A stretch of 64,000 nt of DNA from Hufsiella arboris (GTDB lineage Bacteria; Bacteroidota; Bacteroidia; Sphingobacteriales; Sphingobacteriaceae), in NCBI RefSeq assembly GCF_009834875.1, contig NZ_WVHT01000007.1, positions 62,001-126,000 on the forward strand. Direction: 5' to 3'. Under the pieces are notes generated by a model, which made no database searches, was not told the DNA's origin, and was given only the letters and a program-made list of their open reading frames with translations. The position numbers were made by a program, and so were the translations under genes. This document shows positions 20,612 to 24,573 of this stretch, piece by piece; the stretch's first letter is position 1, and every line of letters starts with the position of its first letter.

Positions 20612-20644
20612 CGTGTTTTCACATAAAAAAAGGGTGAAAACACG
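20612..20644. promoter_or_regulatory. 11-bp perfect inverted repeat in divergent promoter region
   Basis: CGTGTTTTCAC (20612-20622) and GTGAAAACACG (20634-20644) are exact reverse complements around an A-rich 11-base centre. The element lies 81 bp from the minus-strand start codon and 64 bp from the plus-strand one. It may be an operator for a dimeric regulator, such as the response regulator encoded downstream, or a 5'-leader hairpin. Confidence 0.55.
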
Positions 20645-20708
20645 GGGTGCGTCCGAAAAATTTCATCACTAATTTTAATGTAATTCAAACCTTTTAAAAA
20701 TTAGTGTT

Positions 20709-21296
20709 ATGAAAACGAGTCAGATTAACAAAATCAGAGCAACATTGAAAGGGCTTTTTGTCCTTTTAACTTTTGTGTTAATTTCAGCATGCGGTGATCC
20801 GAAGCAGAAAAACTTAAACGAAATAAATGCAAGTAGTTTGGCTGCGGATAGTATTAATTTTGCTGCTGATTGCAGTATATCGCCATCATTTTGCACAACA
20901 GATCCAGATCATTTAGACGAAATTGACCCTACAATACCAATCTCAGATACCCAAATTAATCATCTTGTCAATGGACTTTCTGATTATCCCTTCTTAAAAA
21001 ACGATAGGGCTTTAAAAAAACACACCAACCTTGTCAAAATATTAAAAAAAGGCTTATTCCTAAGCAAAGCGTCTTTGGAGCAAATTCTCCATGACACCCA
21101 AAATCCTAACATCAAGGGAGTTCGAATAATTTTTGGGATCAACTGTCGAAAGAGTGGAGGATATGTCCACTTCACTGCTATTTACGCAGGAGATGACGGT
21201 GCTGCATCCGCACTAGCAGAAGACAGTACACAAACAGATGTAGCTAAGGCGTTAGTTGGCAAAAAATTCGATGGCGTTCCGCCTCCAGGAAATTAA
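20709..21296 (+). CDS. Lipoprotein, paralogue A of a DGVPPP-tailed pair
   Basis: A 195-residue predicted lipoprotein (I-S-A-C, Cys28) of no family I recognise. The soluble part aligns with the next gene over about 100 residues: L-K-K-G-L-F-L with L-H-Y-G-F-Y-L, R-I-I-F-G-I with V-F-Y-F-G-I, and a shared C-terminal D-G-V-P-P-P. The two therefore look like diverged copies of one domain, one lipid-anchored and one helix-anchored. The sequence carries four cysteines after the lipobox (C-S-I-S-P-S-F-C and others), which could form disulphides in the periplasm. It leads a five-gene run ending in a two-component system. A ligand-sensing role is inference. Confidence 0.62.
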   Translation: MKTSQINKIRATLKGLFVLLTFVLISACGDPKQKNLNEINASSLAADSINFAADCSISPSFCTTDPDHLDEIDPTIPISDTQINHLVNGLSDYPFLKNDRALKKHTNLVKILKKGLFLSKASLEQILHDTQNPNIKGVRIIFGINCRKSGGYVHFTAIYAGDDGAASALAEDSTQTDVAKALVGKKFDGVPPPGN

Positions 21297-21330
21297 CAAT
21301 TAACTTCATATACAAATACTAACTAACATT

Positions 21331-21870
21331 ATGGAAAATCTAGGAACAATTATTATTGCCCTCGCAATCGGGCTTATTTTAGGTTACTATTATGGAAAAC
21401 GTATAAAGCCCGTAGAGCCGGATGCTACGCGTATCCCAGATCAAATTCCTGCTACGGAACGTCAAGGCTTTGCAAGCCGTTTACCTAACATTGATAGGCA
21501 CAGGATCGACGATCAAACAGCCAGAGATATGATTAATCGATGCATCAGCGGCTTAGATGAATTAGCCAGCTGGCCGTCACTTCAGGATCTGTTGCATTAT
21601 GGATTCTACCTCGACAATAACCTTGTCAGAACATTAGTGTCTGAATCAAGATCAGAGGAACTCGTGTTTTATTTCGGTATCCGTGAGCCATCCGAAGGCA
21701 CTTCCGAAAGGGGTGAATACTCAATGGTATTCTTCTCTGCAACGCCTGAAGAACGGGCCGCCTATACGAGCTACAACACCTTCGATGTGAATTCATTCAA
21801 TAAACTGATCGCAGGCAAAATATTATTAGACGGAGTTCCACCTCCGAAAAGCATTGAACCAAAACCCTGA
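21331..21870 (+). CDS. Membrane-anchored protein, paralogue B of the DGVPPP-tailed pair
   Basis: A 179-residue protein with one N-terminal membrane helix (about residues 4-22) followed by a positively charged G-K-R-I and a soluble domain. From about residue 60 it matches the lipoprotein encoded just upstream, including the F-G-I strand and the D-G-V-P-P-P tail, with a short extra S-I-E-P-K-P end. Positive-inside reasoning suggests that the soluble domain may face the cytoplasm, unlike its lipoprotein partner; this is uncertain. It is 34 bp after the first copy and 6 bp before the 7-segment membrane gene. Confidence 0.6.
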   Translation: MENLGTIIIALAIGLILGYYYGKRIKPVEPDATRIPDQIPATERQGFASRLPNIDRHRIDDQTARDMINRCISGLDELASWPSLQDLLHYGFYLDNNLVRTLVSESRSEELVFYFGIREPSEGTSERGEYSMVFFSATPEERAAYTSYNTFDVNSFNKLIAGKILLDGVPPPKSIEPKP

Positions 21871-21876
21871 TAGCAG

Positions 21877-22491
21877 ATGATTCTGTATTGGATATTACTG
21901 GGAATTATCTTCCTTTCATTTGTGACCGGACTAATCCGTTTCAAACAGCATAGTATCGCTGGTAAGATATTATGCTGTTTGATTTTTTCCGGGTTGATAA
22001 ACCAGTGTATCGGAATGTATCTGGGTGATAAGACATTGATCAACTACCATATATTTTTTATTTTACAATATGTCCTGGCGACATTGTTCTTCTATTATTC
22101 GTTCTCCCGCCTGGAGATCAAAATATTTAGTCTTGTTTTATTGATACCAGTTTGTATCGCAGGTGTGATTAACAGCGTTTATTTTCAAAAGGCCCATACA
22201 TATCCATCAAACTTTGCTTTGATATCACATAGCCTCTTTTTATTGTATTCGCTGCTTTTGTATATTCAAATGATCAATTCGCCAATTAAACTTAACCTGT
22301 TTAAACAAAGCATTTTCTGGAGCGCAACAGCCTTTCTGGTCTTTCCGGTGCTCATGCTGTCGAGTATCGGCTTGTATAATTATTTCGAACGGCACAAGCT
22401 TGACGAAACTTACATATATATGCTTTTTTACATCGCCAACTACATTTTTTATATCTTACTTGGAGCAGCATTGTGGTTTGACAGAAAATAG
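21877..22491 (+). CDS. Seven-segment integral membrane protein
   Basis: A 204-residue protein that is almost entirely membrane. Hydrophobic segments fall near residues 1-20, 26-49, 56-77, 82-104, 111-133, 145-170 and 179-201, with short loops and no soluble domain. It is not a family I can name. Its stop is 5 bp before the histidine kinase start, and that kinase has only one membrane helix and no sensor domain, so this protein is a good candidate for the sensory part of the system. Confidence 0.62.
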   Translation: MILYWILLGIIFLSFVTGLIRFKQHSIAGKILCCLIFSGLINQCIGMYLGDKTLINYHIFFILQYVLATLFFYYSFSRLEIKIFSLVLLIPVCIAGVINSVYFQKAHTYPSNFALISHSLFLLYSLLLYIQMINSPIKLNLFKQSIFWSATAFLVFPVLMLSSIGLYNYFERHKLDETYIYMLFYIANYIFYILLGAALWFDRK

Positions 22492-22496
22492 AAGTT

Positions 22497-23339
22497 ATGA
22501 GAAGATCACCGGAACAAGCTGAAATATACCTTTTATTCTTTCTGGGGATATTTGTGTTTTCATGCCTGGTGGGTTTTATCATCTATTTTATTTTCGTGTA
22601 CCGAAATAAACAGTTAAAAAATGACCGGGAAAAAGACCAGATGGTCGCGCAATATCATCAGGAACTTTTGAAAACCCGTATCGAGATCCAGGAACAAACT
22701 CTTAAACATATTTCAGATGAAATCCATGACAACATTGGGCAGGTACTGTCTTTCATCAAGCTTAACCTCAGCCAGGCGAAAAACCTGGACAGCGGTCAGA
22801 AACAGGAGAAGATTGATGAAAGCCGTGAGCTGATCAGTCATGTAATTGTCGATCTTCGAAATCTCTCGCATAGTTTAAGTTTTGAGCATATTGTTAAACA
22901 CGGTCTTCCGGAAACGATTAAAAACGATGTTCAGACATTGCAAAACACAGGCGCTTACGATATAGATTTTATTATCTCGGGTCAGCATTATTCCCTGGAT
23001 CAACGAATTGAACTTGTATTATATCGAATTTTTCAGGAAGCAATTAATAATATCATTAAGCACTCAAAGGCTAAACATCTGAAAATCAGCTTGCAATATT
23101 TTCCCGAAATGTTTAATTTAACCGTTGAAGACGACGGTTTAGGTTTTAATGCCGGGGAAATTTTAAAAAATTGTGAGGGGAATGGTTTAAAAAATATCAG
23201 AAACAGGGCCAGCCTGATTGGTGCATCAATGGATGTGAATAGCTCACCAAATGAAGGTTGCCAAATTACTATTAGCTTAAATCCGTCAGGAAATTCTCAA
23301 GTTAACGATAATGAGGCAATACCAAGTGGCTCTGGTTGA
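22497..23339 (+). CDS. Sensor histidine kinase, HisKA_3 (NarL-partner) type
   Basis: A 280-residue kinase with a single N-terminal membrane helix (about 15-37) and a short coiled coil leading into the dimerisation domain. The phosphorylated His is H77 in D-E-I-H-D-N-I-G-Q, the class that pairs with LuxR-type regulators. The ATPase domain has the N-box (A-I-N-N-I-I-K-H-S), D-D-G-L-G-F and G-N-G-L-K-N-I. There is no periplasmic or PAS/GAF input domain, so input must come from partner proteins, presumably those encoded directly upstream. Its last 29 bases overlap the response-regulator gene. Confidence 0.9.
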   Translation: MRRSPEQAEIYLLFFLGIFVFSCLVGFIIYFIFVYRNKQLKNDREKDQMVAQYHQELLKTRIEIQEQTLKHISDEIHDNIGQVLSFIKLNLSQAKNLDSGQKQEKIDESRELISHVIVDLRNLSHSLSFEHIVKHGLPETIKNDVQTLQNTGAYDIDFIISGQHYSLDQRIELVLYRIFQEAINNIIKHSKAKHLKISLQYFPEMFNLTVEDDGLGFNAGEILKNCEGNGLKNIRNRASLIGASMDVNSSPNEGCQITISLNPSGNSQVNDNEAIPSGSG

Positions 23340-23955
23340 TGATCACCGGCTTTTCCGAAACGGTATGGCTTCGTTAATTGGCAATTTTCCCGAATACATT
23401 GTTTCGCTCCAGGCGTCTAACGGCAAAGAGTTTATTCAGAAAATAAGCAAAAAATTCAAGCCTGATATCGTTCTTCTTGATCTCGACATGCCCGAAATGG
23501 ATGGTATCGCCACAACTGACTGGCTGCACAAAAACTTCCCCGAAATTCACGTGATTATTCTTTCTATGTTCGACAATTCGGAAAAGATTTTAAAGCTGGT
23601 TGAGATGGGCATTAAGGGCTATCTTTTAAAAGATTCGGACATGGATGATTTTAAGCGTGCCTTGGATACGGTGTCGAAAGACGATGTTTTCTTTCCGTCA
23701 TTTGTAACAAAACATATGATGCAGAAGCTTAAACCTCCTCCCAAGACCAATGGAGAAGTGACGCTTAATAAACGTGAAACAGAGTTCCTTATCTGGAACT
23801 GCAGTGAGCTAACTTACAAGGAAATTGCTGATAAAATGTGTATCAGCATACGAACCGTTGATGGTTATCGCGATCAGTTATTCGAGAAATTGCAGATCAA
23901 AAATAGGGTAGGATTGGTGCTATATGCGATTAAGCATAAACTAGTAGAAATGTAA
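23311..23955 (+). CDS. LuxR/NarL-family response regulator
   Basis: A 214-residue DNA-binding response regulator. The receiver domain (1-125) shows acidic D-D-H near the N-terminus, phospho-acceptor D57 in L-L-D-L-D-M-P, and Lys in Y-L-L-K-D. The C-terminal LuxR helix-turn-helix (about 150-210) includes N-K-R-E-T-E-F and Y-K-E-I-A-D-K-M. Its start lies inside the kinase gene, a translational-coupling arrangement that ensures both are made together. Targets are unknown; the divergent promoter at 20531-20708 and the secreted protein gene at 24100 are the nearest candidates. Confidence 0.9.
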   Translation: MRQYQVALVDDHRLFRNGMASLIGNFPEYIVSLQASNGKEFIQKISKKFKPDIVLLDLDMPEMDGIATTDWLHKNFPEIHVIILSMFDNSEKILKLVEMGIKGYLLKDSDMDDFKRALDTVSKDDVFFPSFVTKHMMQKLKPPPKTNGEVTLNKRETEFLIWNCSELTYKEIADKMCISIRTVDGYRDQLFEKLQIKNRVGLVLYAIKHKLVEM

Positions 23956-24099: not shown

Positions 24100-24573
24100 A
24101 TGAAAAAACTTTTAATTATGTCTGCTCTTGTTTTATCAAGCTTTGTATACAAAGCAGCAGACGCTCAGATCAGGATCAATGTTAACATTGGCAATCAACC
24201 AGAATGGGGACCTTATGGCTATGACCGTGCCGATTACTATTACCTTCCGGAAATTGGTGCATATTATAATGTAGCACAACGTAACTATACTTATCAGCAA
24301 GGAAACAGATGGGTTACAAAAACCTCGCTTCCATCGCGATATAAAAACTACGATTTATACCGGTCATATAAAGTTGTAATAAATGACCGTAATCCATGGA
24401 TAAACAATAATGTTTATAGCAGTAGGTACGGCTCATATAGAAACAGACACGATCAGCGCAGCATTCGCGACTACAATAATAACGCTAAATACGCAAGGGA
24501 TAATGATAGAGATCAGAGAAGGGATAACAGATGGGACGGTCATGATAATCGGGGTAAGGACCGGTCAAGATAG
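24100..24573 (+). CDS. Small secreted Tyr/Asn/Arg/Asp-rich protein
   Basis: A 157-residue exported protein, not recognised as a named family. A signal peptide ends near A-D-A-Q. The first half is tyrosine-rich (repeated Y-Y and N-Y pairs, as in A-D-Y-Y-Y-L-P and N-Y-T-Y), and the last 50 residues are a charged low-complexity tail dominated by Asp, Arg and Asn. Small proteins with such tails occur in Bacteroidota envelopes, but no function is known to me. It follows the response-regulator gene by 144 bp and ends at a strong terminator. Confidence 0.65.
   Translation: MKKLLIMSALVLSSFVYKAADAQIRINVNIGNQPEWGPYGYDRADYYYLPEIGAYYNVAQRNYTYQQGNRWVTKTSLPSRYKNYDLYRSYKVVINDRNPWINNNVYSSRYGSYRNRHDQRSIRDYNNNAKYARDNDRDQRRDNRWDGHDNRGKDRSR

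Follow-up and report, generated by a model that had tools for sequence, protein, structure and literature searches.

Five genes of Hufsiella arboris are a two-copy version of a recurrent cassette of small protein, seven-helix membrane protein, histidine kinase and LuxR-type regulator

Do five closely spaced genes of Hufsiella arboris belong together, and what kind of signalling system do they encode? The genes lie at 20709-23955 of a 64,000-nucleotide stretch (contig NZ_WVHT01000007.1, positions 62,001 to 126,000 of the forward strand), called the window here. An earlier note, made from the letters alone, had described two paralogous anchored proteins, a seven-segment protein, a kinase and a regulator, and proposed that the five act together as a system without a name. 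The five prove to be a two-copy form of a recurrent cassette made up of a small protein, a seven-transmembrane (7TM) protein, a HisKA_3 histidine kinase and a LuxR-type regulator. The genes (lengths in amino acids, aa) and the tails of the two small proteins are as follows.

20709-21296, plus strand: gene 1, 195 aa, lipoprotein form of the small tailed protein
21331-21870, plus strand: gene 2, 179 aa, single-helix-anchored form of the small tailed protein
21877-22491, plus strand: gene 3, 204 aa, seven-helix membrane protein, predicted N-terminus outside and C-terminus inside (N-out/C-in), predicted bundle like those of G protein-coupled receptors (GPCRs) and rhodopsins
22497-23339, plus strand: gene 4, 280 aa, HisKA_3 histidine kinase with one N-terminal helix
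23311-23955, plus strand: gene 5, 214 aa, NarL/LuxR-type response regulator
21270-21287, plus strand: DGVPPP tail of gene 1, read as a cysteine-less counterpart of the CPxxC tail of the family
21829-21846, plus strand: DGVPPP tail of gene 2, near the C-terminus, without cysteine

The coordinates of the open reading frames (ORFs) agreed with the earlier description in position, strand and spacing. Gaps of 34, 6 and 5 base pairs (bp) are followed by a 29-bp overlap of genes 4 and 5. The two kinds of anchor and the shared DGVPPP tail near both C-termini were also confirmed. Gene 1 has the lipobox VLISAC at its N-terminus, and its domain is predicted to lie outside the cytoplasmic membrane. Gene 2 has one N-terminal helix, preceded by MEN and followed by GKRIK. 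By these flanking charges it is probably N-out/C-in with its domain in the cytoplasm, and it is therefore probably not an outside sensor, which corrects the earlier reading. The gene 4 kinase matched PF07730 HisKA_3 (36.8 bits, cut-off 24) and PF02518 HATPase_c (42.4 bits, cut-off 26.4). No sensor domain was above cut-off in the Pfam scan of gene 4, as the earlier note had claimed. Gene 5 matched PF00072 Response_reg (84.7 bits, cut-off 30.2) and PF00196 GerE (43 bits, cut-off 23.5). Genes 4 and 5 have the features of a NarL/LuxR-type two-component system, with a HisKA_3 and HATPase_c kinase and a receiver joined to a LuxR-type helix-turn-helix (HTH).

Relatives of gene 3 were found in 14 of 100 genomes, its own included. 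At the 11 of 15 listed places examined, a small protein was encoded directly upstream in every case (some were longer, judged by eye) and the kinase followed in nine. The closest relative cassette (L022) has one lipoprotein with the tail VPPVPGN and the next closest (L023) has one leaderless small protein with the tail CPPWC. Two further cassettes are present in the window's own genome. Within the class, the 7TM protein was found in at least 106 of the 395 genomes sampled (E<=1e-6), often several times per genome. For the phylum the count was at least 77 of 385, with eight of those genomes outside the class; both counts are lower bounds, with up to seven candidates scored per genome. The small protein was found in 61 of the 395 genomes of the class.

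The pairing was seen from both sides. Starting from the 7TM protein, a small protein was encoded directly upstream at all 28 testable loci of 30, the other two being cut upstream. Starting from the small protein, 30 loci had a 7TM gene by profile in 25 cases, an unmatched hydrophobic ORF in its place in four and a contig edge in one. A peptide pattern derived from the small protein gave 78 loci in named genomes. The 7TM gene came next in 76 and two were cut by a contig end. The profile behind this count was built partly from the same loci; with a profile from other loci the 7TM gene was found in 72 of the 78. The upstream proteins of the 7TM-side loci, of some pattern loci and of part of the weak matches were judged by eye, as were the four unmatched ORFs. 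The sets of 30, 30 and 78 loci overlap, and at 90% the 144 7TM proteins form 125 clusters. Among the named hosts are Pontibacter, Hymenobacter, Mucilaginibacter, Chitinophaga, Larkinella, Fibrella and metagenome-assembled genomes of Ignavibacteria. Twenty weak 7TM matches were also picked on purpose, and 18 of them had a small-protein candidate upstream (eight by profile, seven by eye and three diverged proteins without the tail).

In the genomes, the small protein and the 7TM protein are thereby shown to be near-obligate partners, and the same kinase and regulator usually come after them. Both of the latter were present at 59 of the 65 pattern loci with more than 2.6 kb downstream. Five of the remaining loci had no kinase and one (L134) had only a stub of the kinase helix and coil, and for this reason the small and 7TM proteins look like the core of the cassette. 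The profile search and neighbourhood survey that the earlier note had suggested as a check thus found recurrent co-occurrence, and its proposal that the five genes act as a system is supported by this co-occurrence in both directions (76 of 78 from small protein to 7TM, 28 of 28 in reverse). Its view that the arrangement is not a named system also held. Neither the small protein nor the 7TM protein has a convincing Pfam or NCBIfam family, and literature searches, at the level of search results, gave no description of a cassette that pairs them.

It is distinctly unlikely that the small and 7TM proteins are mere outputs of an ordinary two-component system, co-transcribed with it and standing outside sensing. 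The existence of small-7TM pairs without a kinase fits such a role, as does their place at the front of an operon that looks autoregulated. However, the kinase has no recognisable input domain, the association is kept across diverged kinases in many genomes, and the 7TM genes of L197 and L202 sit with a kinase and a regulator despite having no small gene.

Several variants of the arrangement were seen. L134 (5001-7889) encodes the small and 7TM proteins, then a 91-aa stub like the kinase N-terminus and then a secreted protein that by eye looks like MACPF. Four loci (L166, L167, L168 and L171) have two consecutive 7TM genes before one kinase-regulator pair, and in L166 each 7TM gene has its own small gene. 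In L196, L205 and L215 a larger diverged partner without the proline tail precedes the 7TM and kinase genes, with a regulator gene upstream; this is possibly a sister version of the cassette. An apparent fusion of small and 7TM proteins in L176 was a wrong-frame ORF.

The typical small protein is about 104 aa long, begins with M-[SA]-F-x-G and ends with CPxxC...N-x-L-N. Among 125 small proteins, a set which includes one wrong pick (L045, a 50-aa ORF), the tail was CPxxC in 99 and CP-x(3-5)-C in 10; 14 tails have prolines but not this arrangement of cysteines, and two are of other kinds. No residue is conserved more than the tail proline (121 of 125 rows, and 49 of the 50 rows that did not come from the pattern-seeded scan). 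The first tail cysteine is kept in 115 rows and the second in 103. As the proline is conserved above both cysteines, the tail is better accounted for by a linear binding motif than by a metal or disulfide site, and the DGVPPP tails of the window are read as versions of it without cysteine.

The tail could also mark a metal- or thiol-redox sensor whose state reaches the kinase by way of the 7TM protein, a role like that proposed for Sco/PrrC-type proteins next to RegBA-type systems. The frequency of CPxxC (99) and CP-x(3-5)-C (10) among the 125 tails agrees with such a role. The 14 proline tails without the cysteine pattern do not, nor do the two cysteine-less tails of the window. Moreover, 75 small proteins gave only weak, scattered and unconvincing matches to nine Pfam families (E<=0.1), with no Sco family among them, and none was matched by genes 1 and 2 (E<=1). 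A redox or metal sensor is considered quite improbable.

An N-terminal hydrophobic stretch was absent in 107 of 127 small proteins, genes 1 and 2 included, on a crude hydropathy scale that flags an internal stretch in L091, L097 and L106. Leaderless and lipoprotein forms have the same domain and tail. L123, a typical member, has a compact predicted fold with a predicted local distance difference test (pLDDT) score of 91.8, and no solved structure matched it in Foldseek at E<=0.001. A likeness to CopG (best VIA Z 3.5 over 51 residues) was not used, and a new fold is not thereby proved. Other candidates set aside for the small proteins were Pfam DUF6968 (five of 75 members, best E 0.0009), Pfam DUF7151 (three of 75) and single-member NCBIfam matches (best E 0.0018). 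Ten small proteins rescanned singly against the family libraries gave no match, and a typical small protein as the query gave no plasmid match.

The earlier note had taken genes 1 and 2 to be diverged copies of one domain. In direct BLASTP they matched weakly (E=0.005, 21% over 117 columns). A profile of 125 homologues that excluded both ranked gene 1 first (E=0.0004) and gene 2 second (E=0.031) of the 211 ORFs of the window, the third having an E of 0.34. Two results count against paralogy. A profile of the 45-residue core gave gene 1 at E 0.19 and missed gene 2, along with eight of the 125 others, and hhalign of each single sequence against the family gave weak probabilities of 24.5% for gene 1 and 2.2% for gene 2 (unrelated control 0.2%). 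Taking sequence, tail and gene position together, gene 1 is likely a member of the family and a paralogue of gene 2, and gene 2 is somewhat less sure. As a query, gene 2 found only its own genome among 301 genomes of the family, no relative among 59 pattern matches in genome contigs and no plasmid match. Gene 1 found only its own copy in the two genomes of the genus. A second gene 1-like place in its own genome was at chance level (E 0.35), contained stops and was dropped. By sequence, genes 1 and 2 gave only chance-level matches to solved structures.

The usual cassette has one small protein, mostly unanchored, and no convincing second tailed small gene was found directly upstream in 86 other loci. 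The sole regular-expression match, in L157, was a 92-aa acidic ORF and not convincing, and 12 profile matches were at chance level in very small searches. Two anchored copies before one 7TM gene are thus a local variant of the window. Longer small proteins with seemingly two copies of the domain or tail occur in L029, L024 and L070, by profile clearly only in L029; they are a one-chain parallel to the two genes of the window.

The gene 3 protein was modelled with seven helices at a pLDDT of 93.5 and a predicted template modelling score (pTM) of 0.89. In an alignment of 73 members the mean count of lysine plus arginine (K+R) was 2.33, 2.14, 1.60 and 2.45 in loops 1, 3 and 5 and the C-terminus, against 0.51, 1.03, 0.92 and 1.25 in the N-terminus and loops 2, 4 and 6. 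The excess therefore predicts an N-out/C-in topology. The bias was positive in 10 of 11 lipoprotein-type 7TM proteins (one tie) and in 124 of 130 others (three negative). Three cassettes with transmembrane-anchored small proteins were left out of both groups and all three were positive. The idea of a topology that depends on which side the small protein lies was rejected, the bias being the same in lipoprotein and other cassettes.

VIA alignment of the model gave Z of 12.6-14.7 over 183-202 of 204 residues with root mean square deviations of 3.1-4.3 among the 50 matches listed from the Foldseek top 1000. These 50 are of GPCR, Frizzled/Smoothened or rhodopsin type, and one of them, 5jsi, is titled 'membrane protein' only. 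The best Foldseek E value was 0.063, with none at or below 0.001. The likeness of the model to GPCRs and rhodopsins would be in shape only, and such Z values may reflect a common helical bundle. A retinal lysine in helix 7 was looked for, and no lysine was present at residues 182-195 of gene 3; 12 of the 73 members have one within this stretch. The inner end of helix 6 is among the most conserved parts (Phe147 in 68 and Trp148 in 63 of 73). An acidic residue in helix 2, at the column of gene 3 residue 43, was present in 63 of 73 proteins, and asparagine in helix 7, at the columns of residues 188 and 192, in 47 and 51. Gene 3 itself has Gln43, Asn188 and Tyr192. These columns resemble the sodium-site residues of class A GPCRs.

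Matches of the 73 members to Pfam and NCBIfam were weak, scattered and unconvincing. Pfam DUF3817 (one of 73 members), five NCBIfam families (one member each) and DUF6163 (L023 only, below cut-off) were not used. No phage match was found with the 7TM protein as the query.

Two repeats lie upstream of gene 1.

20612-20644, no strand: candidate operator, perfect 11-bp inverted repeat CGTGTTTTCAC-11-GTGAAAACACG, 64 bp upstream of gene 1 and between divergent genes
20667-20706, no strand: 10-bp perfect inverted repeat, loop of 20 nt, ending 2 nt short of the start codon of gene 1, possible hairpin in the 5' leader

The first can also be read as two GTG-N4-CAC palindromes 21 bp apart and is the only site in its genome at this spacing with up to three mismatches. 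Reverse-complementary GT-N6-AC sites 20-25 bp apart, with a peak at 22, were found in 16 of 126 cassette upstream regions (about 14 distinct), in none of 100 shuffles and in two of 198 control upstreams. By a second definition, repeated 4-bp-arm palindromes 21-23 bp apart, 16 of 126 regions were positive, compared with 0.75 on average (at most 3) in shuffles and two of 198 controls. The letters of the half-sites vary between cassettes and the pairing does not, which fits a separate operator for each regulator. Control of the operon by its own regulator through the paired palindromes is probable. Seven listed cassettes with the half-site AAAACAC, two of which show it singly, carry R-[DE] in the recognition helix of the regulator, and eight others do not. 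This comparison covers the 15 of 21 loci that yielded a row, with relatedness uncontrolled; a tie between the two is only suggestive. The second repeat could form a hairpin that hides the ribosome site of gene 1.

With moderate confidence, the cassette is taken to be a self-regulated two-component system whose sensor has been split off the kinase into two dedicated proteins. On the best reading the small and 7TM proteins form the sensing unit of an accessory-protein system. The small protein would dock on the 7TM protein, its tail making at least part of the contact. The 7TM protein, which has the conserved Phe-Trp inner end of helix 6, would pass the state of the complex to the kinase through the single helix and coil of the latter. 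The kinase would then set the phosphorylation of the regulator, which may bind the paired palindromes and so turn its own operon up or keep it in check. Duplication and anchoring of the small protein in the window would have given one copy predicted outside and one inside, which could hold the 7TM protein at both faces.

Several points weigh against this account. Genomic partnership is not the same as physical contact. Leaderless and lipoprotein small proteins share domain, tail and 7TM topology, and a single docking mode could hardly work on both membrane faces. In conservation, the inner halves of the 7TM helices did not differ significantly from the outer ones (p=0.14). Among the 20 weak 7TM matches, L197 and L202 had no small protein upstream, and the kinase profile matched at 16 loci with nothing found at four. 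The paired-palindrome operator is present in a minority of cassettes, and the window site fails the 4-bp-arm rule.

The small protein might instead be a secreted protein or peptide-like signal, with its tail as ligand and the 7TM protein as receptor, in a self-inducing cell-to-cell system. The small gene is first and probably autoregulated, lipoprotein forms and several paralogous cassettes per genome exist, the tail is conserved beyond the domain and the predicted 7TM shape is receptor-like. Yet most small proteins have no signal peptide, the typical member has the compact fold described above, gene 2 is probably anchored facing the cytoplasm, and no recurrent exporter or protease gene was seen in the cassettes examined. 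This explanation is judged unlikely. A bolder form of the split-sensor account is judged a long shot: a GPCR-like 7TM protein with a small, usually cytoplasmic partner that inserts its proline tail into the inner face and relays the signal to a histidine kinase, copies of the partner lying here on either side of the membrane. If true, this would be a bacterial counterpart of receptor-plus-transducer signalling.

SaePQRS of Staphylococcus aureus is the closest working analogue, a likeness in working and not membership. There a lipoprotein and a membrane protein form a complex with a kinase whose input domain is simple, and the system is autoinduced via two regulator sites (PMC5083920). In architecture only, the four-gene Sae operon and the cassette both encode a lipoprotein, a multi-pass membrane protein, a regulator and a kinase lacking any large sensor domain. 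The Sae promoter precedes the first gene and has two regulator sites, to be set beside the paired palindromes before gene 1. SaeQ has four predicted helices, whereas gene 3 has seven, and SaeR has a winged-helix domain (PMC5083920), whereas gene 5 has a GerE/LuxR-type HTH. Gene order also differs, and SaeP and SaeQ were compared with genes 1-3 by description. SaePQRS is not known to have a repeated tailed domain.

LiaFSR-type systems join a HisKA_3 kinase, a LuxR-type regulator and a dedicated membrane protein in one operon. They have one inhibitory membrane protein and are not known to have a small tailed partner or a 7TM bundle. The kinase and regulator classes are shared with the cassette. 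A LiaS model gave a match well under its cut-off. In 7TMR-DISM (PF07695) proteins a seven-helix module is fused to its own signalling module. The likeness is a bacterial seven-helix module coupled to signalling domains, but the 7TM protein of the cassette is a separate gene in the window and in the neighbourhoods read. No PF07695 match was found in gene 3 at E<=1 or in the 73 members at E<=0.01, and profile-profile comparison with 13 family members gave probabilities of 0.8% and 1.0% over 30 and 42 columns. In RcsF-IgaA-RcsC a lipoprotein, a multi-pass membrane protein and a kinase act in series and are not known to share one operon. The chain is alike; the proteins and the phosphorelay are different. 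BtsS/LytS-type kinases also have seven helices and an outside N-terminus, and the helices feed into a histidine kinase (PMC10653868). Helix number, orientation and kinase output are alike, whereas sensor and kinase are one protein of LytS/LytTR type there and two genes in the cassette.

Two-component systems with accessory proteins are already known. Here two protein families for which neither Pfam nor NCBIfam has a convincing entry occur as an almost invariant pair, which points to a class of environmental sensors in Bacteroidota left unnamed by the family libraries. The confident receptor-like 7TM model, the nearly invariant tail proline and the predicted operator are handles for direct experiment.

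Just downstream of the window regulator, 24100-24573 encodes a secreted-looking basic protein of 157 aa without a Pfam match, a possible target gene. A gene for a protein containing FKGRGAQVNT follows the cassette in L039 (3668-4738), L023 (3605-4681), L025 (3745-4815) and L026 (3724-4842). Its position 3' of these four cassettes suggests an ancestral site for one cassette.

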